Below are positions 1,574-37,583 of a stretch of 37,583 nucleotides of DNA, in pieces. The DNA is from an uncultured Bacteroidales bacterium (lineage in GTDB: Bacteria; Bacteroidota; Bacteroidia; Bacteroidales; P3). The translations under genes were made by a program, and so were the position numbers. Under the pieces are notes generated by a model that saw only the letters and a list, made by a program, of their open reading frames with translations, did no database searches and had not been told where the DNA came from. The stretch spans positions 1 to 37,583 of the forward strand of contig CAMOFI010000007.1 in NCBI GenBank assembly GCA_946613135.1. The letters are read 5' to 3'. Position 1 is the stretch's first letter. Each line of letters begins with the position of its first letter.

Positions 1574-1576
1574 CGA

Positions 1577-4205: not shown

Positions 4206-4268
4206 AGTTACAACATTTATGTCTCTCACCACATCCAACAACGTGACAACGGAAGTATTGGCTGATAT

Positions 4269-4277
4269 GGGGGGGGG
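4269..4277 (-). repeat. Nine-base poly-C tract at start of the WecA-like gene
   Basis: Nine consecutive G on the plus strand (C on the coding strand), located 4 codons after a possible ATG at 4286 and 63 nt before the preferred ATG at 4205. With nine C the upstream ATG reads in frame into the transferase. With ten C that frame ends at a TAG that overlaps the ATG at 4205, and with eight C it ends sooner at a TGA. The tract could therefore tune or switch translation by slippage. That is inference from sequence only. Confidence 0.8.
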
Positions 4278-4312
4278 TAAAAACATTTAGAATAAACTAC
4301 TTACAGATAATA

Positions 4313-5443: not shown

Positions 5444-5496
5444 AGCTTATTGATTTTGATTATTACTATTCTAATTAATATGATATATTATATATA

Positions 5497-6384: not shown

Positions 6385-6450
6385 GGTTGAACTGTGAATT
6401 ATATATTGATTTATAATGAGTCGTGACGTTAAGCTTATTTATTCGCTCTT

Positions 6451-7053
6451 TTATAAAGAGTTATCCTCTTCAGTCTTCAAACCGCCCTGCTTGTCTGTCT
6501 CTTCTTTCCTGACTTCCAACGAGCTGAAAAGAGGGTGGTTCCTGTCTTTTTCCGAAAGGATGATCTTGTCCGACGGAATAAGCCAGTCTATGCCGAGCTC
6601 TGGGTCGTTCCACGCTATGGCTCCCTCAGAAGCGGGATTATAGAACGAGTCACACTTGTATTGGAATATAACCTCGTCGCTCAACACCGAAAAGCCATGG
6701 GCAAAACCTTTGGGTATGAAAAACTGGCGGTGGCTCTCCGCCGTCAGATGAACTGCCACATATTTGCCAAACGTCTCGGAACGCGGACGTATATCCACCG
6801 CAACGTCGAGCACCTCTCCTTTCACCACGCGCACCAGTTTGCTCTGGGCATGTGGCGGACGCTGGAAATGAAGGCCCCTCACCACTCCATAGCACGACTT
6901 CGACTCGTTGTCCTGCACAAAATGAACCTTGAAACCGGTCTTCTCGCGGAATTCTCGCTCATTGAAACTCTCATAAAAATATCCTCGCTCGTCTCCGTAC
7001 AGCGTAGGCTCTATTATCAACACACCTGGTATTTCTGTCTTGGTTATTTCCAT
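6451..7053 (-). CDS. rfbC: dTDP-4-dehydrorhamnose 3,5-epimerase (RmlC)
   Basis: Third step of dTDP-L-rhamnose synthesis, a cofactor-free double epimerisation in a cupin fold. Protein of 200 aa. The catalytic His is in GVVRGLHFQRPPHAQ (His62), and the substrate tyrosines are in FQYKCDSFYNPASEGAIAWND (two lines of the motif, Tyr132 and Tyr138). The last 15 or so residues are a charged tail not shared with the core fold. The ATG at 7053 lies 75 nt after the rfbA stop. Confidence 0.95.
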   Translation of the reverse strand: MEITKTEIPGVLIIEPTLYGDERGYFYESFNEREFREKTGFKVHFVQDNESKSCYGVVRGLHFQRPPHAQSKLVRVVKGEVLDVAVDIRPRSETFGKYVAVHLTAESHRQFFIPKGFAHGFSVLSDEVIFQYKCDSFYNPASEGAIAWNDPELGIDWLIPSDKIILSEKDRNHPLFSSLEVRKEETDKQGGLKTEEDNSL

Positions 7054-7128
7054 ATTTTAGTTTCTATTAGTTGTTTTAGTTCGATCTTTACCATTCATTC
7101 TGCCGCATCTGTCCACATTATGGCTTCA

Positions 7129-8007
7129 CTATCTGTTCTTTATCAGTGAAAGCAGGTATTGCCCATACTGGTTTTTTGCCATAGGTTTGGCTATGCGTTC
7201 CAGATCGTCGTCGCCTATCCAGCCTTTCTCGTAGGCAATACTCTCGAGGCATGCTATCTTCAACCCTTGACGTTTTTCAATAACCTCTATAAAGGTCGAT
7301 GCCTCCGACAGCGAATCGTGCGTGCCGGTATCCAACCACGCGAAACCACGCCCCAACAGCTTCACTTTCAAATCACCATCGTTAAGAAACGCCTGATTTA
7401 CACTCGTTATCTCCAACTCTCCACGAAGTGACGGCTTTATGCTCTTGGCAATCTCCACCACCTTGTTGGGATAGAAATACAACCCGACAACAGCATAATT
7501 AGACTTCGGTTGTTGGGGCTTCTCCTCTATCGACAGCACGTTGCCGTGGCCATCAAACTCTGCCACTCCATATCGCTGCGGGTCTGCCACCCAGTATCCA
7601 AATACCGTGGCTTTGTGCTCCTCCTCGGCCGACGCTACAGCCTCACGGAGCAGACGCGAAAATCCAGAACCCTGGAAGATATTGTCGCCAAGCACGAGAC
7701 ACACACTGTCGTCCCCTATAAAATCTTCTCCTATAATGAATGCCTGAGCCAATCCGTCGGGTGATGGCTGTTCGGCATACGAAAAACGGACTCCAAAGTC
7801 GCTCCCGTCTCCTAACAGTCGACGGAAAGCCGGAAGGTCTGTCGGCGTCGAGATAATCAGTATGTCGCGTATGCCGGCCAACATCAGTGCCGAGATGGGA
7901 TAGTATACCATCGGCTTGTCGTAGATAGGCAACAGCTGCTTGCTGACTCCCTTTGTTATAGGATACAGGCGGGGCCCAGACCCGCCTGCCAATACTATTC
8001 CTTTCAT
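7129..8007 (-). CDS. rfbA: Glucose-1-phosphate thymidylyltransferase (RmlA)
   Basis: Makes dTDP-glucose from glucose-1-phosphate and dTTP, the first and regulated step of rhamnose synthesis. Length 292 aa, as expected. Visible are [13 protein letters not shown] at the N-terminus, [24 protein letters not shown] (the Mg-binding Asp), [19 protein letters not shown] and [14 protein letters not shown]. The nucleotide loop normally reads GGSGTRL; here codon 12 is CCC and gives Pro in place of Thr, while Arg13 is kept. The start overlaps the Wzc stop as ATGA. Confidence 0.95.
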
Positions 8008-10448
8008 TTCTCTTTGTCTTTTTCGCTGTCCTCGCCATAGCCGTAGCCATAACCATAGCCATAACCATAGCCGTAGCCGTAACCATAGCCGTAACCGTAG
8101 CCATAACCGTAGCCGTAGCCACCGTAACGGCGCTTGATGAGCGGTGTGTCGGTGAGGACAATTGCCATATTCTTGAACTTCTGCTTGTCGGAAAGTTCCT
8201 GAACGAACGGGAAGGCTCCCTTGTTGAAACGACCCACACGCATGATGTACATCGTAAGGTCGGCAGAACGGTTCACGATAGCGGCATCGGCAACAATCTG
8301 TGCCGGCGTCGAGTCGAGAATTATGTAGTCGTAACGCTCTCGCAAATACTCAATCAACTTCTCGAAACGGCCGTTCATGAGCAACTGGGTGGCATTTGGC
8401 GGTGTCTTCTCGCAGACTATATAGTCCAGATTCTCCGACGAGTCACTCTTGGTGATAATCTTGTCTATCTCGTTCTCCTTGCCCAGCAGGTAGTGGATAA
8501 TACCCATACGGTTGTGGCGGTCTATGGTCTTCGACGTACTGCGCTTGCGCAAGTCGAGGTCAAGCAGAATTGTCTTCTTGCCGGTATAGGCCAGCGACAA
8601 GGCAAGGTTAATACTGACATACGACTTTCCTTCGCCTGGTGTTGTCGACACCGTCTGAAGCACTTTCTTGTTTTCGTCGTTAAGGAAGAACGGTATGTTG
8701 GAATGCAATATTCGAAATGCCTCGGTGATGGTGTCCGTGCCATTGGCAGTGACAAGCACCTCGTCATTGGCCTTGCTTTCGGGCTTGGAAGGTATCTCGC
8801 CGAGCACGGGGATGGAGAGGGCTCGCTCCACATCGGGTTTGCCACGCAACTTAGTGTTGAAGAACGACAGGCAGAACATCACCGCAGCAGGTATTGCAAG
8901 ACCCAACACCAGGGCTACAAGCGCAAACATCATAAGACTTGGAGCTACCTTGATCTGTGTGGCGCTCTCCACTACCTTGGCATTAGATATGGTCACTGCA
9001 AGGTTCATGGCGTTCTCCTCGCGTTTGCTCAACAAGTAGAGATACAGCTCTTCTTTGATTTTTTGCTGGCGCTCGACGGAACTGACTGCCTTCGACAAAC
9101 CAGGTATATCACTGGCACGCTGCGTAAGCTGACGCTCCTGACGTTTGGCTCCCGACAGACGCACATTCGTCGAACTGATCAAGTTGTTGATTGAAGAAAG
9201 GACAGCGTCACGCGTTTTCTGCAGCTCCTGCTTTGAGGTGACCACGCTAGGATTGTTGGCTCCTGCTCCACGCGCCAAGCGCTGAAACGAAAGCAACTGG
9301 TTGTTGTATACTGTTATGAGGTTAGACACCTGCACATCAGAAATGATGAGCGACGGTATCAGCTCGTCATCATTGGTATGGCTGTTCAGATGGTCGCGGA
9401 CCATCTTGATGGCCTCAAGCTCCGCCTCTAACGACACGACCTCGTCGGCGTAGCGCGTACTCGACTGGAGTATTGTACCCGTGGCAGACGTAAAGTCAGG
9501 GACATTACTATTACGCTTGATGGCTGCCACCTGGTCGTCGACAATACTGAGCTCGCCCGATATCAACGCTATACGGTCGTCGATAAACTTCTCTGTCTTC
9601 TGAGCTACAAGGTTCTTGTCGTTCACCACATCTTCATTGTAAACAGCTATCAAGGTGTCTATAACCTCCTGCGTACGCTGCTGGTTTGCATCGGTATACG
9701 AAATCGAAATAATCGACGCCACCTTGTCCACTCGCGACACCTCAAGTCTGCCCTTCATGCTTTTGGCCACATTGTATAGCGGTGTGTAGCCCATATTAAA
9801 TGTGACGTCAAGGTCGTCTTTGCCGAAAGCTTCCAGCCTCTCTATCGAAAAACTTATGTACTCATTGAGTTTCTCTATCTGGTTGAAGGCTGCTTGCTTC
9901 TTTTCTCCCTTCACTTTCTGACCGTTGTATGAGACGAGCTTGTACATGTAGCTGTTGGCATCGACAGGAGTAACCTCCATGCCTAACGCTATTTCAAGGC
10001 TGTCCACTTCAGTGTTGTATACGCTCAACCGCATCGGGCTGTCTCTGTAATACGATACTTTCTTGAACATCGCGCTGCGGTTGCACCAGTTGGTGAGACC
10101 TAACCTTTCGGCCGTCTTCATCAGCAAGGGTGTCGACTTGATGATATATATCTCGTTCTCAATCGACAACGAACTATTATTGAACCCCATATTTGCAAAT
10201 ATGGCATCCATGTTCTGGCTCTTCATGCCTTTGCCGTTGTTGTCGTCGCGCAACAGGATCGTGGCATTGTCGGTAAAAGCCTTCGGCTTGGACTTGTACA
10301 TGAATGCACTTATTACCAGGCACACCAACACTGATATCACGAACCAGTACCAATTGTTGATGACGATGAAAACGATATCCTTTATCGAAATGGCGTTCTC
10401 ATTCTCCTGGTTAGCGTTCTGCTGATTCAAAATCTGATTGTTTTCCAT
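8004..10448 (-). CDS. wzc: Wzc-type polysaccharide copolymerase and BY-kinase
   Basis: Inner-membrane protein of 814 aa that controls polysaccharide chain length and export and phosphorylates itself on C-terminal tyrosines. The Wzz-type N-terminal domain has a membrane helix at about 28-50 ([17 protein letters not shown]), then a long coiled-coil-rich periplasmic part, a second helix near 500-525 and a cytoplasmic kinase domain. Kinase motifs are Walker A TTPGEGKS (Lys608), Walker A' [11 protein letters not shown] and Walker [10 protein letters not shown]. The usual tyrosine cluster is replaced by RRYGG followed by fourteen Tyr-Gly dipeptides and the acidic/basic end EDSEKDKEK, so the tail has 15 tyrosines. 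It follows the Wza-like gene after 80 nt containing a hairpin and is coupled to rfbA by ATGA. Relatives include P. gingivalis Ptk1. Kinase activity itself is inferred. Confidence 0.93.
8035..8118 (-). repeat. Fourteen hexanucleotide repeats encoding (Tyr-Gly)14
   Basis: Fourteen uninterrupted six-base units encode the alternating Tyr-Gly tail of the kinase (about residues 778-805). On the plus strand the units are ccatag, ccgtag, ccataa and ccgtaa in mixed order. Both Tyr codons and two Gly codons are used without pattern, so the peptide is strictly regular while the DNA is not. A change in unit number would lengthen or shorten the tail without shifting the frame. Confidence 0.95.
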
Positions 10449-23022: not shown

Positions 23023-26000
23023 ATGGAAAGGAATAGTATTTTTCGACGCATTATGATGTGCTTGGCTTTCATTTGCCTGATTTTCGGTGCAAAAGCACAG
23101 AACATCGGCAGTTGCACCGTAACCGTGCAGATGCACGACTTATACGGAGACGGATGGAATGGAGCCAGACTTATCGTTGAACAAAATGGCAACACCGTCG
23201 CCTCTCTTGGTTTTGGGCAATGGAGCAACCAGCAAGCCACAGATACAGTGGCTTACCTTACACTCGACAGCGGAACAGTATCGCTCAGTTGGGTTAGTGG
23301 CGACTACGACAACGAGTGCTCCTTCTCTTTTCTGAACACCGATGGCGAAGAGCTATTCAGTCTAAGCAATTTACAAATGGACAAGACCGACAGTCTGAGA
23401 TTCCTCGGCTCTTTCACCAACACATGCATTAACTGCCCACGTCCACAAAACATCCACCTCACCGGACGCACCACAACAAGTCTCGACCTGGCTTGGGACG
23501 CAAACGGTGTAGCATACATTGTGGAATACTACCAGGCCGGCAGCCAATCCGGAAGTGTAACTTCGCTCACCTCAAACAGCAACAGCCTGTCGCTGACCGG
23601 ACTGACAGCCAACACGCCATACAGTGTCAGCATCCGTTCCATCTGTTCTGACGGAGACACTTCGAATTGGAACAACGCAATTTTCTTTACCGAATGCGAT
23701 GCCATAGGATGCGACTGGAAGGTGGCTCTGCTCGACGACTACGACAACGGATTTGACCAGTCCATGGTTGTAGTGATGCACCCAATAGGTATAGTCCTCG
23801 ATACCGTCTCTTTCAGCCAAAACTTTTGGCAGATAAACAATGGTCACTACATGGAAAAAAACATCTCCTACTGCCCTGGCGACCAACTCTTTCTCAAATA
23901 CTTCCCTCGATACGACTATGCCAACAGTTCGCAACATGTGCTGCTCATCAATTCGGACAACGACACTGTCAGCCGTATCAACATATCAGACTTTGGCAAC
24001 GAATACGGCCAGTTCGACTCTTTGCAGATGCTGGGTTTCCATATCGACACATTTTCTATCTCCTGCCCTTCCTGCATCGCCGTGAATGGCATTGAGCTGA
24101 CATCCGTCGACACCAATAGCGCCACAATCTCATGGCAAAACACCAACGCTCTGTCGTACCTCATCGAATGGGGTACGGAAATCGCCATGGAACAAGGCGG
24201 CGGCACACGCATCTCGACCACCGATTCAAGCATCACCTTCAGCGGTCTAAGTGCCAACACGCAATACCGCTTCGTGATAGCTGGACTCTGCGCCGACAAC
24301 GACACCTCGCAGTTCCGCCAGCTAAGTTTCACCACATGGCCATCTATGCAAAACCGCATCTATGTCAATGCAGCATCGAATGCCAACATAGCTGACGGAC
24401 GCAGCTGGGCCTCTGCCTACAACTCGCTCTACGATGCCTTGCAGGCCGCACATACTCTGCACCAATGCTATGCTAACGACATAGAGGTATGGGTAGCGGC
24501 AGGCACCTACTTCGGCGACACCACCTACAACTCTAACCAATACGCCAACTCGGCATTCAAAATGCAACTTGGCGTCAATGTTTACGGCGGTTTCAACGGC
24601 ACGGAGTCGTCGCTCGACCAACGCAATGTGGCTCAAAATCCAACCATCATCGACGGCAACAACGACCGTACCGTTCTCATTGGCGAAGAAGCCGGCTACT
24701 ATATCGACAACAACTATTACCAACCCACTGGAACATCAGTCTGGGACGGCATCACTATCCAAAACGGCTCCGACTGCGGCGTACGCATCTACCATGGTTT
24801 CACCCTACGCAACTGTACTGTGCGCAACTGTAGCAGCTCTTACGGCGGTGGCATCTACTCGTCGTATGCCACTATCGAAAACTGCATCATCGAGCACTGC
24901 CAATCCTACAACAACGGCGGTGGCATCTACTCGATGAACAGCCGCATAACCGGTACCACCATACGCGACTGCAGGACAATATACTCATATAACGGCGGTG
25001 GCATCTACTCGTCCAACGACACTATTAGCCACTGCATCTTCTACAACGACACTGCATCAAACGGCTCGGCCATCTATGCCTATAACAGAACCACCATCTC
25101 GAACTGCCTGATCTACGACAACCAAGCGAACAATTACGGCACGGTCACGTTGAACCGCTCTACAATGGTAAACAGCAATGTCGTTCGCAATCGCTCGACG
25201 AACACCTCTTTTGCAGGTGTCTACCAAAACGACAGCTCCTCTATTGTCAACTGTATCGTATGGAACAATAAGGGCTACAACAACATTATTTCAGACCAAG
25301 TCTCTATCTCAACTGCCATCAATTGCGCAGTGGAGAGTAACATGACTGCCAGTAACAGACAAGACAACATCATCCTCGCATCCGACAACAACGGCATCGA
25401 ACCCGATGCAAAATACGTGGCTTTTGCCGACCCCGACGACAACGACTTCCGCCTTTCTGAAGAATCGGATTGTATCAATGCCGGAACTGCCAACTCCCTA
25501 TGCGGCAGTACAGACCTCTTCGGCAACCCGAGAGTTTACGACAATACGGTCGACATCGGATGCTACGAAGCGCATAACGAACCTATGTGCTTACGGCCCT
25601 CGGCACTTACAGCCCTCGCCTCCAGCACCTCTGCCATGCTGCGCTGGAACTCTCCTTCGTCGGCCATCAGCACAACTCTCGAATACCGCGAGAGCGGCTC
25701 CAACGACTGGTCTGCCATCACGGGGCTCACAACAAGCAGCTACTACCTGACAGGCCTGTCTTCGTCGACACTCTACGAAGCCCGCGTGAGCTGCCTTTGC
25801 GATGGGGCTATCACCAGTCAATACAGCGACATCTGCTCCTTCTCCACCGAATGCGGTACGGGCGAAAACCGCGTCGTCTGCATTGGCGACAGCACCAACA
25901 CCACCAGTTCCAATAGCCTGCCTACCAACATCTACTACCGTTACAGCTATAGCCAGCAGCTCTTCCTCAGCAGCGAACTGGGCGGCAGTGGCATCATAAA

Positions 26001-29000
26001 TGATGTCCGTTTCCGCTACGGCTCATCCACCGCCGAGACACGACGTATCAAGATCTACATCGCCACCACCCAAAATGAAACGTTGTCTTCGTCGACCGCC
26101 GTCAACGGCTCCAACATGACACTGGTATACAACGGCTCGGTAAATTTCAACCGAAACACCACCTGGACAACCATCCCCTTCAGCCAGCCTTTCGATTATG
26201 ACGGTATGCAGAACCTGGTTCTCATCGTCGTCGACAGCACCGGCAACTATACTAGCTCCCGCAGCTTCTATACTTCTCAGGCTGGAGGCACAAGAGCTCT
26301 TTATCAGTACAGCGACAACACTATTTACAACATCAACCAAAGCTACACCAGCTGGACGACAACATCTGTCCGAAACAACATAATCTTTGACATAGAATGC
26401 CCGAGTTCTTCATGCGACAGGCCCTTGCTCATTGTCGACAGCTATACCGACAGCAGCGCCACTCTCACTTGCCAAACCGAAGGCGATCTGCAGCTGCAAT
26501 ACCGCAAGGGTACCGAGGGCGAATTTATCGACCTGACGCCACAAGTCAGCATCACGCTCTTCAATCTCGCCCAAGCAAGCCATTATGAGGTACGTATCCG
26601 TCGCATCTGCTCTGATGGCGACACCTCGGCTTGGCGCAACCTCAGCTTCAACACTCTACCGTCTAACGTCAATCGTCTTTATGTAGCTTCACAAGAACGC
26701 GGCAATGGCAGCGGAACCAGCTGGGAAAACGCCTCTGGCGACTTGAATTGGGCTCTCGCTACCGCCGAAACAATACTGACGCGCTTCGGCTCCGCACCGG
26801 AGATATGGGTTGCCGAAGGCACCTACTACGGAGGATTCAACATGCGTGCCGGCGTGAAAGTGTATGGCGGTTTCGCCGGCAACGAACCAGCCGACTACGA
26901 CATCTCTCAACGCAACGTCTCCGCCCATGCCTCTATCCTCGACGGACAACACCAACGTCGCGTTCTGAGCCAAACTCATGATTTCAGCTCCAGCCAATGG
27001 GCTCTCTGGGACGGTTTCATAATTCAAAACGGACATGCTACAAACTCACAGGGTGGCGGCGTTTACATGCGCCAATTCTCACAACTCAACAATTGCACCG
27101 TCCGTAACTGCCATGCAAGCGACAACGGCGGCGGCATCTACACCCAGGGCAGCAGTTACTCTGACAACCGCATCGTCATCAGCAATTGCCACATCGAAGG
27201 CGACACCTCCCAATCCTACGGCGGCGGCGTGTACCTTTATGGAGCCACCCTCATCAACAGTTTTGTGGCCAACAACCGCACTTCCAATTATAGCGGCGGC
27301 GGCATCTATTCCAGCAGCTCCACCCTCGCATACAACACCATCGTCAAGAACCATGCCGCAACATACAACGAAAATTCAGGTGGCGGCATCTATAACAACA
27401 ACACCTCACGCATCGTAGGATGTATCCTGTGGGGCAACACTCAAGGCAGCGGCACAGCCTCGGCAGTGAACAACGGCACCATCTGCAACTACTGTGCTCT
27501 CGACAACAATATCTACAACGACAGCGTCATCCACAACTGGATGCTCGTCTCCGACAACGCAGGGTCGCTATACTCACCCATGTTCGTCAATCCTGACGTT
27601 GCAGACGGCGACTGGCATCTTGGCGAAGGCAGCATTTGCGTCAATCGCGGCAGCGACAGCATCTACAACGCTATCATCACCTCTATCTCTACCGCTCCCG
27701 CAGCCGTCACCACAGACCTCGACGGCAACCAACGCATCCAGCAGGGCCATATCGACCTCGGCTGCTTCGAGTCGAACAACAGCACTCTGCAACTGCCTGT
27801 CTATGACAGAATCGTCTATGTCAAGCCTACTTCATCGGGAGTAGGCGACGGCACCTCTTGGAACAACGCAACCGACAATCTCAACGATGCCCAGTTCTTG
27901 GCTGCAATGAACGGATGCGACGTATGGGTTGCTCAAGGCACCTACTATGGCGGATTCAATATCCACGCCGGTGTCAACGTCTACGGCGGCTTCAATGGCG
28001 ACGAGTCTGCATCATTCAATATCGAAAACCGCGACCTCGACGCTCACGCCTCAATCCTCGACGGCGCAGACTCTATGCAGGTCCTCGTTTCAGAATCCCA
28101 ATCATCATCAAACAGTTTGCCGTCGATCTGGGACGGTTTCACCGTCCGCAAAGGTTTCGGCAATAACGGCGGTGGCATCTACCTCGGCAACAACGGCAAA
28201 ACCACCATCAACCGCTTCATCGTCACCAACTGCAACGCTTCCAACTACGGCGGTGGCATCTATGCCAACGGTAGCCATTTCACTATATCAAACTCCATTG
28301 TCAACGCCGACAGCGCCAACTACGGCGGCGGTATATATATAGAAAATGGACGCATCGAAAACTGTCTCGTGGCCAACAACACAGCTCGCTGGCAGGGCGG
28401 CGGCATACAAGCCTACAATGCAAACATCTACGGAGCCACCGTGGTGCACAACCTCATTACCAACAACGACTACGACTATAACGGTGCCGGAATCTATATG
28501 GACTCCTACAGCAGCCACATCTCAAACTCTATCGTCTGGGGCAACCGCGAACAACAGAACAGCTCGCAAGTTGGCGGCAGCTTAAACAGCTCGACGTTCC
28601 GCTACTGTGCTATCGAACTCTGCAACTCGTTCGACAATCTCTCCCAGTCCATATCTCTGTCTATCGAAAACGAGGGTTCTGTGTTCTCGCCTCGCTTCGT
28701 CCAACCCTCTTCAGGATACGGACACCACTACAACAACGGCGAATGGACGCTGACACAGGGCAGCATCTGCATCAACCGCGGCAACTCTTCTTATCAAGCC
28801 ACTCTGTACGACCTGGCTCACAACAGCCGCATTCAGAACGACACCGTCGACCTCGGATGCTATGAATCTCCCTATTATGGCAAAGCTCTTCCTGACTATG
28901 GCAACATCATCTATGTCAAGAACACAGCTTCTGGCTCAGCCGACGGCAGCAGCTGGAGCAACGCCATGGATGACATCAACAACGCACTGAACATAGCAAA

Positions 29001-32000
29001 ATCTTTCGGCGTCAAGAACGTATGGGTGGCCGAAGGCGTCTACCTCGGCAACGAACAAAGCAACAACGCTTTCACCATCCTCCCAGGCATCAATGTCTAT
29101 GGAGGCTTCGCCGGCAACGAACCCGCCGACTACGACCTGTCACAACGCGATTTCGACACACACACATCTATCCTCGACGGTAACAATGTGCGACGCGTAC
29201 TTAACCAAAATAGCCATTTCTCCTCAACAACAACAGCTACGTGGAACGGTTTCACTATCCGCAACGGCAATGCAAACAACACCAGCAACGGCGGCGGCGC
29301 ATACCTGAGAGGCCATACCAACATCGTGGCATGCACTTTCGAAAACAACAACGGCTACTATGGCGGTGCCATCTATGTTGATGGCGGCTCGTTCACCAAC
29401 ACAGTCTACGATGCCGATTCGAACAAAATAAGCTACTACGACAGGACCATTCACTTGGCCGACTGTAAGATCAGGAACAACAACGCCTATTACGGCGGCG
29501 GCCTATACGGCAACTACGTCAGCATGGTTGGTTGCCTCTTCGAAGGAAACTCCGCCTACTACTACGGCGGCGGTGTCTACAGCTCCTACGCTTATATCAT
29601 CAACACCACTATCGTGGGCAACAACTCGCAGAACAGCACCTCGGGAGGTCTCTATGGAAGTGGGCTCCGCTTAGTCAACTCCATAGTCTGGGGCAACAAG
29701 CAGGGCTATTACAGCGGCAACTTCAGCGGCTCATTCTCCACAGCCGTGGCCAGCGCCATAGAGAACTACAGTCTCGACACCAACATCGTCAACCTGGCAG
29801 CAGCCAACGACGGCAGCGACCTTTCGCTCAACTATGTACGCTTTAACGACCCTGCAGAAGGCGACTACAGCCTCCACGCAAGCTCCCAATGCATCAACAT
29901 CGGCAACGACAGCCTCTACAACCTGGCCATGCTGGCCATGCACAGCGACTACTACAACGCAACCTCGCAAAAGGACCTCGCTGGCAACAGCCGCTTTATG
30001 GGTAGTGCCATCGATCTCGGATGCTACGAAACCGACGCCAACACCGATTGTCCGTCTGTTATGGACGTAAGAGTGTTCGACACGCTGGCCTCGTCAGCAA
30101 CAGTGACATGGACTCCTGGCGGCAACGAGTCGCAGTGGGTTGTGCGTCTCCGCATGGACGACGGCACCTTCGACAGCACCTTCGTATCACACAATGACAC
30201 TGTAACCCTTACTGGACTGCTTCTCAACCGCAACTACAACGTGTCTATCCGAGCCCTTTGCGACGAACAGTCCATGAGTTTCTTCAGCATTCCCGCCCAC
30301 TTCACCACCGACTGCGATCCGTCCACACTGGCTCCACTGCCCGACTTTAGCAGCATGTCTCCCATCAACAACGAAACCATCCACAACAACACAATAGTTT
30401 TCACCTGGGCAGCTATGGCCAACGCCACAAGCTACGATTTCTACTTCTGGAAAGCAAGCGACAGCGAACCTTCGGAACCTACCCTGAAAAATCTGACCTC
30501 CGCATCATGCAACTACACAATACCTGATTTCAGCCAGAACCACGGAAGCCTGTACAATTGGAGAGTGGTGGCATGGAACGAATGTCTCTCGAAGACAAGC
30601 CAGATAATGACTGTCCAGCAGGCTCACCTGCCAAACCTGCACGTGTCTGCTTTTTCGACATCCACACCTCGCGCCGGACAGGCGATGACCGTAGAATGGA
30701 CCGTCACCAACGACGGACAAGGGGCAACACCTCCAGGTGCCGAATGGAACGACTATATCTGGGTTAGCGGACATAGCGGCGTGGGCGGCGGCTTCCTCTA
30801 CAACGTCGACGAGGTGCTGCTTGCCTCAGTACCCAACCTGCAACAGCTACTGCCCGGACAGAGCTATACCAACAGCACCACCGTGCAACTGCCGCAAGAC
30901 TATGTAGGCGACTTCTTCTTCTTTGCCTTCGCCGACCAGTACTCGGCCAACAACATCAACCTGACACCTACTGGCTCAGAAAACATACCACTGCCTTACA
31001 CTCCCAGCACGACAGGGTCGCCCTATCCTTACCTGCAGTCGCAGACGACAAGCTATCCCGGCAACTTCATCCACAGCCGTGTCGAAGAAACTCTTGAAAG
31101 CGACAACTTCTTCTACATCCAACAGACCATTCTGCCGCCGCCGACTCCGGACCTGACCACAACGAACATACAGCATCCGCTGAACGCCTTTAGCGGCGAC
31201 ACCATAAAAATCAAATGGCAGACAACGAACCAGGGCGACGCTTCGGCCACAGGAGCATGGAGCGACGCTGTATACATCTCGGACAACGCTACCTTCAGCC
31301 CCAACACGTCTACACTACTCGGCACTTCCACCTTCGACGGAACACTGATGGTCAACGAATCCTACACTGACTCTATCACCGCCATCCTCCCGATAAGCCT
31401 GCTTACGGGCGACTACTACATCTTCATCTGCAACGACGCCGGCAACCAGCTGTACGAAAACATCTACGAGACAAACAACACCGTAAGCTCGTCGCAGACT
31501 ATGGCTGTCACCATGTCGATGCCTGCCGACCTGGCCGTTCAGGCTGTCTCTTCAAATCGCGACACCATGAGCACTCTCGGCAGCTACACCATCTCCTATA
31601 GTGTTGCCAACGTAGGCCTCAGACCGACGGGCGAGACGAACTGGCGCGACGTGGCTTACCTGTCGCCAACAATCAACTTCGACAATACGACAGCCAGACA
31701 GATAGGCCAAAAGCGGCAGAATCGGAATATGGATATTAACGATATCTATAACGAGACCATGCAGGTGACCATCCCCGACAGCATCGACGATATGCGATAT
31801 ATTATTGTACGCACGGATGTCGACAACAACGTTTTCGAATACACCTACGAGGACAACAACACCTTGGCCGACTCCGACGCCGTAAGGATATACCCTCCGG
31901 ACTTGACTGTACACTTCGACGGCCAATATGCCGCTGTTGACGCAAATCGTAAGGTGACCCTCTCATGGGTAGTCGCCAACAATGGTGGCGACATCAGCAA

Positions 32001-35000
32001 CCGTCGAATCATGGAAACCATCGAATGCAACAATCAAACGGTCTTCTCGGAAACGAGTTATTATAACCTCCCTAATGGCTATTCTACAACGCGTACCGCC
32101 GAGGTGGTAATCCCCTGCACGGGAACGGACACGGCAGTATTTACCGTTATGATTGACAACATGGACAGAATCTTCGAATCGGACGAGACCAACAACACGG
32201 CCACGACAACGATACATCTGGCTACTCCCGACCTCACTGTTTCTGACCTCGTGCTACCCGACACGATGTGGAGCGGACGCACCTACGACGCCACCTACAC
32301 CGTCACCAACAACGGCTCGGCTCCTGTCGACGCAGTGATTACGGATCTCTTCGCCTTTGGCGATGCCAATACGTGGAACGGCAGCTTTGCCCGACACACT
32401 CGACTTGTACAACTGGCAGCCGGCGAAAGCAAGACTGAAAGTGTTCAGTTAACGATCCCCAACGGCTCAGAAGGTCTGCGCTATATACACCTTGTCACCA
32501 ATGCCGGCGACAGCATCTGCGAAGGCTACAATCTGGCATCGAACCACACCGTTGCCGGCTCGAGCCAGCTGCAGCTGACTCCTTATCCCGACCTGGTAGT
32601 CACTACTATGGAGCTGCCGACAGATATCAATATCGGACAGGGTTTATCGATGGACTATACTATCAAAAACCAGGGTATAGCTCCTATATACCAGAGGGCT
32701 GCAGCAACAAAATTCTACATTTCGCAACAGAGTTCACTTAACCTGAACAACGCTATGCTGATCGGCAGCGACCAGCAACAACTGAATCTCGATATCGACG
32801 ACTCGGCCACCTTCGGCACGCTGCTCCGTATCCCGACAAATATCAACACCGGCCTCTACTATCTGTATGCAGTTGTTGACCCTGACAACGAGATATACGA
32901 GCACACCTATGGCGAGAGCAACAACGTGACACGCAGCAAGCGGTTTTCCGTCAACCAATATCCGCTCGACCTGACGGCATCTGCGCTGACGGGCAACGAC
33001 AACGTGGAATGGGGCAACCGATACACATACACTCTCACCGTAAGCAACAACGCGTCTGTCCCAACGCTGGCAAACATATGGTACGACCGACTCTACCTCT
33101 CGGAAGACAATACTCTGCAAGCCTCCGACCAGCTGATCGGTTCAATCTATCACAACCAACAGCTTGACGCTCAAGACAGCTACAACGTGAATTTCACTGT
33201 CGACATAGCATTCGGAACCCAGCCAGTTTGCTACCTCATAGCCATTGCCGACGCCACCAGCAACAACCCTGACATGGACATGAACAACAACGTCCTCGTC
33301 AAACAAATATCGGTAAGCAGCGTTCCCACCGCCGACCTTGTGATGAGCAATGCCGAAATCATTGGCAATGTAATCAGCGGTCAACCCGCGCAGATTGCAT
33401 ACACCGTAACCAACAACAGCAATGTGGATATCGACAGCAAAACATGGACCGACAAGATCTTCCTGTCCTATAACAACACATACGAATCGACAGACCAAGA
33501 GATTGGCAGCACGACAAAACGCCAGTTCTCGCTTGCTGCCGGCAGCAGCTATCGCGACACGGCATCGTTCATCGTGCCTTTGCCACTCTATGGCGAGATG
33601 AATATCATTGCACGTGCCAACAGCGGCGGAAACTTCTATGAGAACAACACCGACAACAACAACACATATCTTCCGGTAACAGTATCGATACCGCAACCTG
33701 GCGACCTCGTGGTGCGCGACATCATTATGGAGGACACCATCGTGAGCGGACAAACGATACATGTAAGCTGGAACGTTAAGAACATCGGCAACAACAGCCT
33801 GAGCGGCAACAATCTCCGAAGCCTCGCCTATCTCTCCACCGACCAGACATTCGACGCCAACGACAAACTGCTTGGCAACACAAGTTCGAGCAATGTCGTC
33901 CTGGCTCCTGGTGCCGAGGTTGGACAGGGCTTGTCAAACCGCATCAGCGGACTACCCGAAGGCGAATACTACATCATCGTCAAAACAGATGTCAGCAACT
34001 CGTTCAACGAGACCGACGACGACAACAACTCCTCTGTCAGCCTATTCCCATTCACCCTCACTGTTCGCGAATTGACCTTCAATACACCATTGGCCGATAC
34101 ACTATTCAACAACTTGGCCAACGACTACAAACTCAACGTCGGCGACAACACGGACGAAACGGTACGCATATATCTGACCAGCGAGGACACTGCCAGCGGT
34201 GCTGTCAACATGATCTACGTGGCTCACAACACTATCGCCAGCAACCTGAACTACGACCTTTCGACTATCGACCAGGCGGTGGACAATCCTGAACTCTATA
34301 TCCCTGCCACCGACCCCGGCTACTATGGCATCAGCACCACAGGTTCTACCTCCGTTGCCGTTAGCCAGCCTGTCGTAATCGAGGCCGACATACTGCCCTT
34401 CGAACTGCGTCGGGTCACTCCGGATGCAGGTGGCAACACGGGCAACGTAACAGTCGAGCTCATCGGCTCACGCTTCCAACCCTCTATGCAGGTAAGCCTC
34501 ACAAACGAAAACGACACTATCGTTCCTGTCAACTTCGTCTATGGCAACTACTACAGCTGTTTCGTCACTTTCGACCTCAACGGACGCAATGTGGGAACAT
34601 ACGATGTCAATGTTGTCAACTCGACCGAAGGTGTGGCTGTACTCAACGACGGTTTCCGCATCGAAGCCGGCCAGCCCGACAACCTCTACACCAACCTGCT
34701 GATTCCGCAGTCGCCACGTCCCAACAGAACCGTGGTGATGACTCTCGAATATGTTAATGCCGGCAATACCGACATCGCGAACCCAATGGTTCAAGTCAAC
34801 AGCATTGGCGAGTCCTCTATATCACTCACCAACGAGGGCCTGGCCGACGGGTCCACTTCTCTGCTCGTTTCCCTGCAGCCTGAAGAAGAAGTGCCCGGCA
34901 TTCTGCGTCCTGGCGCATCGGGCACTGTAAGTATCTATTGCCACACCGACGGCACCATGATCTATAGTGTCGAACAGGTTGAAAACACCTGGAACACCGG

Positions 35001-37583
35001 CATAGTCACTGAAATCAAGACGCATGTGGCGGGCGAAGGCTATCAGGTTCGACCCGAATCGTGCAGCGTGGGCAACGATGGTGTGGCTACCATCGATGTC
35101 GACGACCCCGAATTGGCAGTTCTCTGGACCTATCCCGACAACCAGACAGACACCTCTCGCACCATCACCGGTCTGGCTCATGGCACCTATCACGTCAAAG
35201 TGTATCAGCGCAACAATCCCGACCTCATAGTCTCTCAGAACTACGTCTCTGTCGACTATATCGACACATGCAACATCCTCAAGCCGGTACTCTCTGCCGT
35301 GAGCTACAGCCAATCATGCGATATTCCTGAGGTTGAATTCTACATAAGTGCTATCGGTGGCGTTGCACCCTATTACTACAGCTGGGCCAACCGATACCTG
35401 ACCTATAGTGACAACGGAAGATACACGCTTGTCTGCAACGTCTACGACGCTGTTGGCCACTCTGTGGTGTGCGAACGCACCATCTATATCCGCAGACTGC
35501 AATGCTCGCAAGACCCCAACGAAATCAAGGGTCCCGAAGGCTGGAACGACACGATGCACTATGTCGCTGCCTCCGAGAAGATGATGTATAACATCGCCTT
35601 CGAAAACGACCCCGATTTCGCCACAGCTCCTGCCACGCGCGTATCCATAAGCTATCCTATCCCTGCTTCTCAGGATGTCTCCACCTTCCGTCTCGGCGAC
35701 TTCGGCTTTGGCGACAATGTGTTCTCCGTACCGCAAGGCTCTGCCTACTATAGCCGTCGCCTCGACGTCTCGCAGTCCTTGGGCGTATGGGTCGACGTCA
35801 CCGCTGGCATCGATATCACAAGCCGACGTGCCTTCTGGGTTTTCCAGAGCATCGACCCGCAGACCGGTTTCGAACCGGCCAGCAGCCAGATGGGCTTCCT
35901 GCCAGTCAACGACACAACGGGTAGCGGCGAAGGCTACGTAAGCTTCACCATCACCCCGGCACAGGATGTACAAACCGGCGACACTGTCAACGTCGACGCT
36001 ACCATAGTCTTCGACGACAATGCCCCCATCTCCACCAACCACTGGAAGAACACCTTCGATGCTGTCGCTCCAGCCTCGGCACTGACTATGACAAGAAGCG
36101 AGAACAGCAACAACCTGTCATTCTCCTTCATGGCATCCGACGACATGGGCGGAACTGGTGTGGACCGCGTTGAACTCTATACCTCGGTCGACGACGGTGC
36201 CTACACCTACTACGCCTCTTGCCCCGCCGACAGCAGCCTTGCCTTCGTCATGGACGACGGTAAAATGTACAAATTCATATCGCTTGCTATCGACCACACC
36301 GGCAACCGCGAAGCAATGAAAGACACTCCTGACACGGTGATAAACAACAGCACCGCTCCTACCGACATATTGCTGTCGTCGAACTTCTTCTATGAAAATG
36401 CTTCCGTCGGCAGCGTGGTGGGACGTCTCTCGTCTCTCGACAACGACATCACCCTCCCGTTCCAGTATGCTCTCGTCAGCGGCGATGGCGACAACGACAA
36501 CGCGCTCTTCAGCATTGAAGGCGGACAGCTGCGCACCGCATCCTCGTTCAGCTGCAACGGTAAACTATCCTACAACGTGCGTATACGGACCACCGACATA
36601 ACCAACCTCTCCTACGAAAAGAGCTTCGTAATCTCTGTCATCCAGGAGAACTTCACCAAATACACACCACTCGACCATGCCATCTGCCAAGGCGATGCCT
36701 ATACCTTCGCCAACCGTTCTCTCTCCTTGGCTGGCACCTATAGCGACACCCTTGCCACAACCTTGGGATGCGACTCCATTGTCACCCTGCAGCTGACCGT
36801 CAACCCAACCTACTCGCTTCAGGAGACACATACCGTTTGCGACAGCTTCACTTGGCACGGCAATACCTACACTTCATCTACCAACACGCCTGAACATCTA
36901 TATTCCACGGCATTGGGTTGCGACTCGCTGATTACACTCAATCTGACGGTGAACCACAGCAACTCTGCCATCGAGTCTGTCGACATATGCGACAGCTACA
37001 CATGGCATGGCGAAACATACACCGCTTCAACTTCCACACCCACTTTCACGTCTACCAACGATGCAGGGTGCGACAGTGTAACCACACTCAACCTGACTGT
37101 ACGCAACAGCAATACAGGCATCCACTACGCTGACGTATGCGACAGCTACACTTGGCACGGCAACACCTACACGGCCTCCAACAGCACTGCCACTTTCATA
37201 GAGCAGAACACCGCCGGATGCGACAGCACCGTGACACTCAACCTCACCGTTCGCCACAGCACCTCGGCCATCGAAACCGAAACCGCATGCGACACCTACA
37301 CTTGGCATGGTGACACCTACACCGCTTCGACTTCGACGCCTACCTTCACCACCTCCAACGCTGCAGGATGCGACAGCGTCGTCACGCTCCATCTGACGGT
37401 GAGCTACTCCAACAGTGCCACCGAGCAGATAACCGCATGCGACACCTACACATGGCACGGCGAAACATACACCGCTTCGACTTCGACGCCGACCTTCACC
37501 ACTACCAACGCCGCAGGGTGCGACAGCATCACCACGCTCAACCTCACAGTCAACATGAGCAACTCTGGCATCCACAGCGTTGA
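23023..37583 (+). CDS. Giant multidomain secreted surface protein (partial, open at right edge)
   Basis: One frame runs 4853 codons with no stop from ATG 23023 to the window end; two stop codons (22993, 22996) just upstream fix the start. The product is above 500 kDa and incomplete. A signal peptide (residues 1-26, ending FGAKAQ) is followed by a DLYGDGWNGA domain (27-140), FN3-like domains (142-226, 348-441, 856-943, 1127-1215, 2342-2531) and a module (944-1127) often seen between such domains in Bacteroidetes. Four beta-helix modules (445-2338) and about nine CARDB-like domains (2538-3682) come next. The rest comprises an IPT/TIG-like part (to 3883), a domain beginning DPNEIKGPEGW (4164-4349), a cadherin-like domain (4446-4545, with ENASVGSVVG and DNDNALF) and 50-residue tandem repeats. 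No enzyme motif is visible, so an adhesin or stalk role is inferred. Export by T9SS is likely from family knowledge, but the sorting domain would lie outside the window. Confidence 0.93.
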   Translation, partial: MERNSIFRRIMMCLAFICLIFGAKAQNIGSCTVTVQMHDLYGDGWNGARLIVEQNGNTVASLGFGQWSNQQATDTVAYLTLDSGTVSLSWVSGDYDNECSFSFLNTDGEELFSLSNLQMDKTDSLRFLGSFTNTCINCPRPQNIHLTGRTTTSLDLAWDANGVAYIVEYYQAGSQSGSVTSLTSNSNSLSLTGLTANTPYSVSIRSICSDGDTSNWNNAIFFTECDAIGCDWKVALLDDYDNGFDQSMVVVMHPIGIVLDTVSFSQNFWQINNGHYMEKNISYCPGDQLFLKYFPRYDYANSSQHVLLINSDNDTVSRINISDFGNEYGQFDSLQMLGFHIDTFSISCPSCIAVNGIELTSVDTNSATISWQNTNALSYLIEWGTEIAMEQGGGTRISTTDSSITFSGLSANTQYRFVIAGLCADNDTSQFRQLSFTTWPSMQNRIYVNAASNANIADGRSWASAYNSLYDALQAAHTLHQCYANDIEVWVAAGTYFGDTTYNSNQYANSAFKMQLGVNVYGGFNGTESSLDQRNVAQNPTIIDGNNDRTVLIGEEAGYYIDNNYYQPTGTSVWDGITIQNGSDCGVRIYHGFTLRNCTVRNCSSSYGGGIYSSYATIENCIIEHCQSYNNGGGIYSMNSRITGTTIRDCRTIYSYNGGGIYSSNDTISHCIFYNDTASNGSAIYAYNRTTISNCLIYDNQANNYGTVTLNRSTMVNSNVVRNRSTNTSFAGVYQNDSSSIVNCIVWNNKGYNNIISDQVSISTAINCAVESNMTASNRQDNIILASDNNGIEPDAKYVAFADPDDNDFRLSEESDCINAGTANSLCGSTDLFGNPRVYDNTVDIGCYEAHNEPMCLRPSALTALASSTSAMLRWNSPSSAISTTLEYRESGSNDWSAITGLTTSSYYLTGLSSSTLYEARVSCLCDGAITSQYSDICSFSTECGTGENRVVCIGDSTNTTSSNSLPTNIYYRYSYSQQLFLSSELGGSGIINDVRFRYGSSTAETRRIKIYIATTQNETLSSSTAVNGSNMTLVYNGSVNFNRNTTWTTIPFSQPFDYDGMQNLVLIVVDSTGNYTSSRSFYTSQAGGTRALYQYSDNTIYNINQSYTSWTTTSVRNNIIFDIECPSSSCDRPLLIVDSYTDSSATLTCQTEGDLQLQYRKGTEGEFIDLTPQVSITLFNLAQASHYEVRIRRICSDGDTSAWRNLSFNTLPSNVNRLYVASQERGNGSGTSWENASGDLNWALATAETILTRFGSAPEIWVAEGTYYGGFNMRAGVKVYGGFAGNEPADYDISQRNVSAHASILDGQHQRRVLSQTHDFSSSQWALWDGFIIQNGHATNSQGGGVYMRQFSQLNNCTVRNCHASDNGGGIYTQGSSYSDNRIVISNCHIEGDTSQSYGGGVYLYGATLINSFVANNRTSNYSGGGIYSSSSTLAYNTIVKNHAATYNENSGGGIYNNNTSRIVGCILWGNTQGSGTASAVNNGTICNYCALDNNIYNDSVIHNWMLVSDNAGSLYSPMFVNPDVADGDWHLGEGSICVNRGSDSIYNAIITSISTAPAAVTTDLDGNQRIQQGHIDLGCFESNNSTLQLPVYDRIVYVKPTSSGVGDGTSWNNATDNLNDAQFLAAMNGCDVWVAQGTYYGGFNIHAGVNVYGGFNGDESASFNIENRDLDAHASILDGADSMQVLVSESQSSSNSLPSIWDGFTVRKGFGNNGGGIYLGNNGKTTINRFIVTNCNASNYGGGIYANGSHFTISNSIVNADSANYGGGIYIENGRIENCLVANNTARWQGGGIQAYNANIYGATVVHNLITNNDYDYNGAGIYMDSYSSHISNSIVWGNREQQNSSQVGGSLNSSTFRYCAIELCNSFDNLSQSISLSIENEGSVFSPRFVQPSSGYGHHYNNGEWTLTQGSICINRGNSSYQATLYDLAHNSRIQNDTVDLGCYESPYYGKALPDYGNIIYVKNTASGSADGSSWSNAMDDINNALNIAKSFGVKNVWVAEGVYLGNEQSNNAFTILPGINVYGGFAGNEPADYDLSQRDFDTHTSILDGNNVRRVLNQNSHFSSTTTATWNGFTIRNGNANNTSNGGGAYLRGHTNIVACTFENNNGYYGGAIYVDGGSFTNTVYDADSNKISYYDRTIHLADCKIRNNNAYYGGGLYGNYVSMVGCLFEGNSAYYYGGGVYSSYAYIINTTIVGNNSQNSTSGGLYGSGLRLVNSIVWGNKQGYYSGNFSGSFSTAVASAIENYSLDTNIVNLAAANDGSDLSLNYVRFNDPAEGDYSLHASSQCINIGNDSLYNLAMLAMHSDYYNATSQKDLAGNSRFMGSAIDLGCYETDANTDCPSVMDVRVFDTLASSATVTWTPGGNESQWVVRLRMDDGTFDSTFVSHNDTVTLTGLLLNRNYNVSIRALCDEQSMSFFSIPAHFTTDCDPSTLAPLPDFSSMSPINNETIHNNTIVFTWAAMANATSYDFYFWKASDSEPSEPTLKNLTSASCNYTIPDFSQNHGSLYNWRVVAWNECLSKTSQIMTVQQAHLPNLHVSAFSTSTPRAGQAMTVEWTVTNDGQGATPPGAEWNDYIWVSGHSGVGGGFLYNVDEVLLASVPNLQQLLPGQSYTNSTTVQLPQDYVGDFFFFAFADQYSANNINLTPTGSENIPLPYTPSTTGSPYPYLQSQTTSYPGNFIHSRVEETLESDNFFYIQQTILPPPTPDLTTTNIQHPLNAFSGDTIKIKWQTTNQGDASATGAWSDAVYISDNATFSPNTSTLLGTSTFDGTLMVNESYTDSITAILPISLLTGDYYIFICNDAGNQLYENIYETNNTVSSSQTMAVTMSMPADLAVQAVSSNRDTMSTLGSYTISYSVANVGLRPTGETNWRDVAYLSPTINFDNTTARQIGQKRQNRNMDINDIYNETMQVTIPDSIDDMRYIIVRTDVDNNVFEYTYEDNNTLADSDAVRIYPPDLTVHFDGQYAAVDANRKVTLSWVVANNGGDISNRRIMETIECNNQTVFSETSYYNLPNGYSTTRTAEVVIPCTGTDTAVFTVMIDNMDRIFESDETNNTATTTIHLATPDLTVSDLVLPDTMWSGRTYDATYTVTNNGSAPVDAVITDLFAFGDANTWNGSFARHTRLVQLAAGESKTESVQLTIPNGSEGLRYIHLVTNAGDSICEGYNLASNHTVAGSSQLQLTPYPDLVVTTMELPTDINIGQGLSMDYTIKNQGIAPIYQRAAATKFYISQQSSLNLNNAMLIGSDQQQLNLDIDDSATFGTLLRIPTNINTGLYYLYAVVDPDNEIYEHTYGESNNVTRSKRFSVNQYPLDLTASALTGNDNVEWGNRYTYTLTVSNNASVPTLANIWYDRLYLSEDNTLQASDQLIGSIYHNQQLDAQDSYNVNFTVDIAFGTQPVCYLIAIADATSNNPDMDMNNNVLVKQISVSSVPTADLVMSNAEIIGNVISGQPAQIAYTVTNNSNVDIDSKTWTDKIFLSYNNTYESTDQEIGSTTKRQFSLAAGSSYRDTASFIVPLPLYGEMNIIARANSGGNFYENNTDNNNTYLPVTVSIPQPGDLVVRDIIMEDTIVSGQTIHVSWNVKNIGNNSLSGNNLRSLAYLSTDQTFDANDKLLGNTSSSNVVLAPGAEVGQGLSNRISGLPEGEYYIIVKTDVSNSFNETDDDNNSSVSLFPFTLTVRELTFNTPLADTLFNNLANDYKLNVGDNTDETVRIYLTSEDTASGAVNMIYVAHNTIASNLNYDLSTIDQAVDNPELYIPATDPGYYGISTTGSTSVAVSQPVVIEADILPFELRRVTPDAGGNTGNVTVELIGSRFQPSMQVSLTNENDTIVPVNFVYGNYYSCFVTFDLNGRNVGTYDVNVVNSTEGVAVLNDGFRIEAGQPDNLYTNLLIPQSPRPNRTVVMTLEYVNAGNTDIANPMVQVNSIGESSISLTNEGLADGSTSLLVSLQPEEEVPGILRPGASGTVSIYCHTDGTMIYSVEQVENTWNTGIVTEIKTHVAGEGYQVRPESCSVGNDGVATIDVDDPELAVLWTYPDNQTDTSRTITGLAHGTYHVKVYQRNNPDLIVSQNYVSVDYIDTCNILKPVLSAVSYSQSCDIPEVEFYISAIGGVAPYYYSWANRYLTYSDNGRYTLVCNVYDAVGHSVVCERTIYIRRLQCSQDPNEIKGPEGWNDTMHYVAASEKMMYNIAFENDPDFATAPATRVSISYPIPASQDVSTFRLGDFGFGDNVFSVPQGSAYYSRRLDVSQSLGVWVDVTAGIDITSRRAFWVFQSIDPQTGFEPASSQMGFLPVNDTTGSGEGYVSFTITPAQDVQTGDTVNVDATIVFDDNAPISTNHWKNTFDAVAPASALTMTRSENSNNLSFSFMASDDMGGTGVDRVELYTSVDDGAYTYYASCPADSSLAFVMDDGKMYKFISLAIDHTGNREAMKDTPDTVINNSTAPTDILLSSNFFYENASVGSVVGRLSSLDNDITLPFQYALVSGDGDNDNALFSIEGGQLRTASSFSCNGKLSYNVRIRTTDITNLSYEKSFVISVIQENFTKYTPLDHAICQGDAYTFANRSLSLAGTYSDTLATTLGCDSIVTLQLTVNPTYSLQETHTVCDSFTWHGNTYTSSTNTPEHLYSTALGCDSLITLNLTVNHSNSAIESVDICDSYTWHGETYTASTSTPTFTSTNDAGCDSVTTLNLTVRNSNTGIHYADVCDSYTWHGNTYTASNSTATFIEQNTAGCDSTVTLNLTVRHSTSAIETETACDTYTWHGDTYTASTSTPTFTTSNAAGCDSVVTLHLTVSYSNSATEQITACDTYTWHGETYTASTSTPTFTTTNAAGCDSITTLNLTVNMSNSGIHSV
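24355..25566 (+). other. Beta-helix module 1 of the giant protein
   Basis: Begins RIYVNAASNANIADGRSWAS and VWVAAGTYFG and ends VDIGCYEA, the frame of right-handed beta-helix domains often called choice-of-anchor Q type. GGGIYS turns at 24844, 24916 and 24994 are 24 and 26 residues apart, about one helix coil each, and their codons are nearly identical. Confidence 0.8.
26674..27777 (+). other. Beta-helix module 2 of the giant protein
   Basis: Starts LYVASQERGNGSGTSWENAS, then IWVAEGTYYGGF, VYGGFAGNEPADYDISQRN and ILDG, and ends HIDLGCFE. Coil markers GGG(I/V)Y occur at 27127, 27223, 27295 and 27379. The GGFAGNEPADYD segment is nearly the same as in module 4, also at DNA level. Confidence 0.8.
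27811..28866 (+). other. Beta-helix module 3 of the giant protein
   Basis: Starts IVYVKPTSSGVGDGTSWNNA, then VWVAQGTYYGGFNIHAGVNV, GGFNGDE and ILDG, and ends VDLGCYE. GGG(I)Y coil markers lie at 28171, 28252 and 28324. It follows module 2 with only about 11 residues between them, suggesting a continuous helical rod. Confidence 0.8.
28903..30035 (+). other. Beta-helix module 4 of the giant protein
   Basis: Starts IIYVKNTASGSADGSSWSNA, then VWVAEGVYLG, VYGGFAGNEPADYDLSQRD and ILDG, and ends IDLGCYE. Tyr-rich GGG turns (YYGGGLYG, YYGGGVYS) mark the coils. Confidence 0.8.
30634..34065 (+). other. Array of about nine CARDB-like domains in the giant protein
   Basis: Units of about 110-130 residues each open with a (P/A)DL-x-V strand (near 30634, 31144, 31527, 31897, 32227, 32587, 32959, 33331 and 33694) and close with an acidic-Asn turn such as ETNNT, YEDNN, ESDETNN, DMNNN or TDNNNT. 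These are features of CARDB, an Ig-like adhesion fold. Unit count is by eye and the first unit is the most divergent. Confidence 0.75.
36685..37583 (+). repeat. 150-bp tandem repeats, CDSYTWHG type, in the giant gene
   Basis: Each unit begins with Cys in C-D-(S/T)-(Y/F)-T-W-H-G and has GCDS about 27 residues later, then a (T/V)TLNLTV strand. Unit Cys codons are at 36838, 36988, 37138, 37288 and 37438, exactly 150 bp apart. A degenerate first unit (CQGDAYTFANRSL) starts at 36685, 153 bp earlier. The array continues past the window. The two Cys per unit could form a disulphide. It resembles repeats near the C-terminus of many Bacteroidetes secreted proteins. Confidence 0.92.

Follow-up and report, generated by a model that had tools for sequence, protein, structure and literature searches.

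A giant surface protein gene of an uncultured Bacteroidales bacterium, probably derived by fusion of two genes that flank a variable slot in relatives

The window, by which is meant the whole stretch of 37,583 nucleotides analysed here, is an entire contig (G000:C7) of an uncultured Bacteroidales bacterium of the GTDB family P3. It carries a giant reading frame that is cut by the contig end, and the question raised by this locus is what kind of protein the frame encodes and how such a gene arose. The genome (G000) is a MAG of 1.74 Mb in 140 contigs and is 75% complete. Colimorpha, which corresponds to UBA1711 of GTDB, belongs to family P3 and comes from mammalian guts (PMC8957277).

The open frame and the domains of its product

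No stop codon was found in frame between positions 23023 and 37581 on the plus strand, that is 4853 sense codons up to the contig end, and the longest of the other ORFs listed over this region was 242 aa. The longest stop-free run in 200 mononucleotide shuffles averaged 186 codons, with a maximum of 300. The visible part of the protein has a mass of 528 kDa and a pI of 4.4. A preliminary description of this DNA had proposed a single open frame for a secreted protein above 500 kDa. Frame and size were borne out, and the protein is secreted-looking, with a signal-peptide-like N-terminus read from the sequence (by eye, a hydrophobic core followed by AKAQ). The following features were assigned.

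23023-37581, plus strand: single open frame of 4853 codons; three other assemblies have one chain across the same junction
23023-23100, plus strand: signal-peptide-like N-terminus (MERNSIFRRIMMCLAFICLIFGAKAQ), read from the sequence
23440-24333, plus strand: two fibronectin III (fn3) domains (Pfam PF00041)
near 25597-25806 and 30061-30267, plus strand: further fn3 domains (Pfam PF00041)
24343-25602, plus strand: beta-helix module 1, choice-of-anchor Q type (NCBIfam; module comparison)
26659-27792, 27793-28887 and 28888-30042, plus strand: beta-helix modules 2, 3 and 4 (mutual identity)
30511-34032, plus strand: CARDB stalk of about seven domains (Pfam PF07705)
34003-34983, plus strand: ORF1C, the conserved end of the upstream arm, where the gene of split relatives stops
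34984-35043, plus strand: fusion junction, a 20-residue linker; split relatives have cargo genes and the downstream signal peptide here
35044-36720, plus strand: ORF2N, the downstream arm; it includes DUF7619 (strongest match at 35911-36054; Pfam, profiles)
36838-37583, plus strand: Cys-paired repeats of 50 aa (150 bp in the DNA), interrupted where the contig ends

Four beta-helices had been claimed for the early part of the protein and were confirmed, with 31-39% mutual identity (37-39% among modules 2-4 and 31-32% between these and module 1). Choice-of-anchor Q was found by NCBIfam at three stretches of the whole protein, and Pfam Beta_helix was slightly below its cut-off. The long CARDB stalk was recovered as well: PF07705 matched six stretches in a whole-protein scan and, by segment, six in 30511-33630 plus one in 33703-34032. 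Four stretches of fn3 were present, and comparison of the protein with solved structures returned three fn3 chains and nothing else; the profiles of the ORF2N slice, of the ORF1 ends and of PKDL, a protein of the relatives described below, gave no match to solved structures. The C-terminal part had been described as cadherin-like and Cys-paired repeats. The Cys-paired repeats stood, as five units spaced exactly 50 aa apart and starting at residue 4606; the cadherin assignment was weak, its match in a segment scan being below the cut-off (E 0.044).

The contig end falls within a tandem array with a period of 150 bp (3.7 copies at window 36987-37547), which explains why the assembly stopped there. 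It also suggests that the copy number of this repeat may vary. No TIGR04183 sorting domain was found within the window itself, where the frame is cut. A protein search of the same genome with the last 283 aa gave eight places in all: one is the window itself, and the other seven lie on C15, C26, C30, C69 and C93. C93 starts within the 150-bp repeat (base 3); over its first 66 bases it agrees with window 37463-37528 at 95% identity, and 39 bases are identical to a neighbouring repeat unit. The frame on C93 runs for 161 codons and is then closed, at C93:488, by a TIGR04183 domain (E 1.3e-11) that also matches PF18962 (4.9e-12). For the last 116 of these 161 residues the best match was the tail of the relative G010 (52%, 6e-36), in which the frame is fused as in the window; tails of other family members came next, and the best of 14 other loci of the same genome compared with the C93 tail reached 7e-14. 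Taken together, these matches suggest that C93 is probably the end of the window gene. The genes that follow the C93 tail gave no match (1e-3) to the genes downstream of the fused frames in G010 and G104, a result that is neutral towards this link or speaks against it. On C15, C26 and C30 the frames have a closed end. C69 was rejected as a competitor because its frame runs off the right end about 410 bp past the repeat match, in a different kind of sequence, and because its repeat resembles that of C93 much less closely at the DNA level (78% over 50 bases only, in the same comparison). C69 carries another Cys-repeat surface protein (L171, G000:C69:4628-8677), the frame of which is likewise cut by the contig end.

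Elsewhere in the window, on the minus strand at 479-10448, lies a run of genes with a DegT aminotransferase, a glycosyl transferase of family 4 and a Wzz/AAA_31 protein, which looks like a capsule or O-antigen locus. The last gene of this run contains an 18-bp tandem repeat at 8038-8121.

Two constant arms and a variable slot

Relatives were sought in 120 genomes of the genus with window residues 3542-4566 as the query, and 16 genomes matched. Four of them (G000, G010, G158 and G104) have one chain. The protein is split into two arms, ORF1 and ORF2, with PKDL and TSP3 genes between them in eight (G032, G016, G028, G058, G100, G127, G055 and G105) and with an RHS gene between them in three (G006, G139 and G099); the last, G005, has ORF2N with no ORF1C hit. 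Both a PKDL/TSP3-type and an RHS-type locus were seen in the one genome G100 (L069-L071). The G005 locus (L048/L078, G005:C67:38942-50551) is a single frame of 3869 aa with ORF2N and many Cys repeats.

The order of the split loci is ORF1, a protein of about 400 aa for which the label PKDL was coined in this analysis, a TSP3 protein, and an ORF2 with its own signal-peptide-like start. Two PKDL proteins scanned had no Pfam match, and two TSP3 proteins scanned had 7-8 thrombospondin-3 stretches. ORF1 of the split relatives ends at the equivalent of window residue 3987. At the window junction 20 residues lead from the ORF1 end (...YSVEQVE) to the mature ORF2 start (QVRPESC...), which in G032 reads ITAFEVQPESC... 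Compared with the split loci, the cargo genes and the ORF2 signal peptide are missing at the window junction, and a linker of about 20 residues connects the predicted mature arms. In the three other fused assemblies the chain also continues without a stop, and both flanks of the junction are 54-59% identical to those of the window protein. Homologues of PKDL and TSP3 were found in all three split controls, in none of the four fused genomes and not in G005 (0/1); as the fused genomes are 72-82% complete, cargo genes may still exist elsewhere in them. The preliminary description had held that close relatives with the modules in separate genes would speak against it. Eight members of the genus do have two genes, but the break is a single one, at residue 3987, and the binding modules, beta-helices and CARDB stalk share one frame in the split relatives.

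Outside the genus scan, a single-protein scan of contigs for close relatives found none, whereas an alignment scan of GTDB contigs with an ORF2N profile found 163, the best 80 of which were kept and assigned to classes by local HMMs; 15 of the 80 are genus loci that also appeared in the genus scan. In 76 of these best 80 of 163 loci, chosen by ORF2N alone, the same strand carries ORF1C upstream; the four loci without it have just 0.2-2.5 kb ahead of the ORF2N match. The paired loci extend to other phyla. Of the 76, 55 have the arms on separate genes: 24 with PKDL/TSP3, 21 with RHS and 10 with slots unmatched by the local models. The remaining 21 are one chain, three of them from the clade of the window and another one containing RHS. 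In 53 of the 55 split loci the end of ORF1 is no more than 16 residues from ORF1C. The author of the preliminary description knew of no described protein with this exact combination; the analysis found three close homologues, and the two arms together in 76 of the 80 loci.

The converse was examined in 149 genomes drawn evenly across Bacteroidales. Every ORF1C match (17/17) was followed on its own strand by ORF2N, at a distance of at most 5.6 kb, and 17 of the 19 ORF2N matches were paired with ORF1C; one of the two unpaired matches is near a contig start and one (G230) is without a recognisable ORF1C. The ORF1C profile was built from loci found by ORF2N, so a highly divergent ORF1C without ORF2N could escape it. 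The system is patchy, with ORF2N in 12 and ORF1C in 10 of the 149 genomes. Whichever arm served as the query, the other was its regular neighbour in these sequences. The window's own genome has a second member (L166; G000:C101, minus strand, 298-4863), with ORF1C and ORF2N in a chain of 1521 aa and a different slot. Upstream of L166 lies a secreted-looking gene of 339 aa, and the ORF2N gene of G230 (L167) has a neighbour of similar appearance in front of it. Seven loci (L087, L093, L095, L097, L109, L116 and L130) have an ORF2 with 620-1600 extra residues before ORF2N; the one extension scanned, that of L130, had no Pfam match.

What lies between the arms varies. Pfam identified an M4 peptidase in the slots of L111 and L121 and an M23 peptidase in that of L102, each fused to the ORF2 start. 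Among single chains, RHS was found in L133, a caspase-like domain in L156 (E 1.6e-5) and carboxypeptidase-regulatory domains in L152 and L155. Peptidase matches in L124 were below the cut-off. No informative family was obtained for the slots of L103 and L142 (both compared with NCBIfam only), L147 and L151, for the L130 extension or for six single-chain segments. The scan left out L145, L148 and the single-chain loci L131, L132, L137, L138, L139, L157, L158 and L159. Two class assignments need a qualification: L154 was classed as PKDL/TSP3 from a partial PKDL match alone, and L135 as RHS although its RHS gene is in several pieces. The latter locus (L135:2677-10999, Flavobacteriaceae) has an ORF1 end and an RHS gene in several short frames, and is decayed or badly assembled. 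As read from these gene orders, the family has a variable slot between constant arms.

T9SS tails and likeness to known surface proteins

The type IX secretion system (T9SS) is known chiefly for the export of proteins with its C-terminal tail. In split loci, the last 160 residues were compared with NCBIfam for those ORF2 proteins that are complete, 45 of 55; of the 18 complete one-chain tails, 2 were examined. A T9SS tail was found on 38 of the 45 ORF2 proteins, encoded by the last gene; the other seven lacked a match to TIGR04183, and a single tail among the 45 matched type I secretion targets instead. No T9SS tail was found in the last 160 residues of 55 ORF1 proteins or of 67 PKDL, TSP3 and RHS slot proteins. 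Among the tails tested, the predicted T9SS tail is confined to the last gene. The preliminary description had proposed a search of the C-terminus for such a tail, and TIGR04183 was indeed present on the two fused relatives whose end is complete and on C93, the latter through an inferred link; the type B domain TIGR04131 was not listed for the tails of C93 or the fused relatives. By a crude hydrophobic-core rule, signal-peptide-like starts were seen in 54/55 ORF2, 24/24 PKDL, 22/23 TSP3 and 20/20 RHS proteins. The T9SS translocon protein SprA is present in the window's own genome, where TIGR04189 at G000:C41 scored 2354 bits against a cut-off of 200. TIGR04183 matched 29 times in this genome, and two of these matches lie in open frames of 3980 aa and 2697 aa.

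By its predicted architecture the window protein would belong to a known class, the T9SS fibrillar adhesins. Like T9SS type A cargo proteins and fibrillar adhesins it combines a signal-peptide-like start, a CARDB stalk, repeats and a probable tail (seen on C93 and the fused relatives), and like the latter it has repeated Ig-like stalk domains (six plus one CARDB). Unlike them, its family has the two arms as separate genes in 55 of 76 paired loci (best 80 of 163). SprB-type gliding adhesins are giant T9SS surface proteins, as the window protein appears to be, and SprB repeats occur in ORF2 of the relative L111; the window protein differs in that its PF13573 match is under the cut-off (E 0.006, segment scan) and that its probable tail on C93, like those of the fused relatives, is of type A. 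DUF7619 is among the families predicted to have an intramolecular isopeptide bond, with a Lys-Asp-Asn triad as given in a table of PMC12617251, and such domains occur in adhesin stalks according to the same source. A resemblance also exists to RHS/YD-repeat (teneurin-like, polymorphic toxin) proteins, as RHS occupies the slot of 21 split loci and lies inside the chain L133 (best 80 of 163); PMC6425310 describes bacterial teneurin-like proteins in which CARDB and similar domains precede the YD shell. The window protein itself, unlike these, has no RHS repeats, none of the RHS families being listed by Pfam for the whole protein or its segments, and its slot is empty. The TANFOR polymorphic toxins of Bacteroidetes are similar in being secreted proteins encoded beside tailed T9SS substrates, and their export by T9SS has been proposed (PMC7073777). 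In the family described here, by contrast, the two outer arms stay the same while the part between them changes, and no TANFOR families were listed in the NCBIfam scans, in which most ORF1 proteins were scanned at their ends only. Searches of the open-licence full-text literature found no description of the arrangement of two arms around a variable slot.

Probable origin of the fused gene and its meaning

The four fused rows formed one clade both in the tree of ORF1 ends (support 99/99) and in that of ORF2 starts (100/99). An 81-row tree again placed them in one clade (98), within a set of 28 rows (97) made up of 22 split PKDL/TSP3 loci, the four fused and two unclassified loci. The sister of the fused clade was moderately supported, as G032 (80/93) in one tree and as a 9-row group (90/91) in the other. 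The trees give a monophyletic fusion, and since the fused clade nests among split genes, the window gene is probably a derived, cargo-less weld of two neighbouring genes. The simplest reading would be a single fusion event in which the slot genes were lost. One-chain forms occur beyond Bacteroidales, in KSB1, Ignavibacteria and cyanobacteria, so that a fusion need not mean anything in particular, and at depth either state may be the ancestral one. Together with those in Chlorobiaceae, Anaerolineae and Burkholderiales, such forms would also suit the opposite polarity, with a single chain ancestral in the genus and the split loci produced by gene fission and insertion of cargo. This is improbable, as the RHS-type outgroup within the genus is also split, the fused rows group in a single clade that lies among split ones, and fission must also provide the ORF2 signal peptide.

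Our preferred explanation, to which a probability of about 0.6 is given, is that the window gene is a fusion product encoding a T9SS-exported surface fibre, the arms of which are separate around a cargo slot in relatives. The giant protein would probably be located at the cell surface, with the binding and beta-helix modules of its N-terminus extended outward on the CARDB stalk and with the C-terminal arm (DUF7619, Cys repeats and a T9SS tail probably on C93) as the anchor. To this extent the interpretation in the preliminary description, a rod carrying an adhesive tip away from the cell, is partly supported. ORF1 and ORF2 of many relatives are separate, secreted-looking proteins, with RHS, a peptidase or the PKDL/TSP3 pair in the slot between them, and could form one surface assembly around the cargo, exported via the ORF2 tail. 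Loss of the slot genes and of the ORF2 signal peptide in the clade of the window would have given one chain, an adhesin without cargo. We infer that the separate arms associate, that the ORF2 tail serves the whole set and that the fused protein is a cargo-less adhesin. A fusion would be expected if the ORF1 end lay near the ORF2 start in the assembly; a chance fusion of neighbours is also possible. A more far-reaching version is put forward only tentatively, at somewhat below even odds: a machine of two constant arms with swappable cargo, in which ORF1 would be an adhesive arm without a tail, ORF2 an anchor with the only T9SS tail, on which the tail-less partners would ride through T9SS, and the window protein a cargo-less covalent adhesin.

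The window protein could instead be an ordinary giant T9SS adhesin, the product of a neutral weld of operon neighbours that were co-regulated surface proteins and never formed a complex. Neighbouring genes can fuse without a prior complex, T9SS-tailed proteins are plentiful in this genome, with the 29 TIGR04183 matches mentioned, and the counts of N-terminal modules differ among relatives. We consider this rather unlikely, as reciprocal pairing of 17/17 and 17/19 across the order exceeds the needs of a shared operon, the same arm order recurs in other phyla, as one chain there too, and a T9SS tail on one partner only is beyond what a shared operon requires. An assembly chimera or frameshift artefact would be conceivable for a MAG with 140 contigs and 75% completeness in which the frame ends within a repeat, and a stop or frameshift was what the preliminary description had named as evidence against itself. 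Such an artefact is scarcely credible here: the junction is interior to the contig, and in three further assemblies the arms are fused at this very position, again with no stop, which refutes a chimera at the junction, although the number of Cys repeats at the contig edge may still be affected.

The gene sets of this family recur with the T9SS tail found on one member in three or four. The natural fusion unites a tail-less with a tailed arm, so that whether ORF1 rides on ORF2 becomes directly testable. Some slot genes in relatives are toxin-like or protease-like, and the shared, exchangeable slot connects RHS proteins and peptidases with the giant CARDB adhesins found in gut Bacteroidales. Through this slot, giant proteins that had no name gain a concrete hypothesis.
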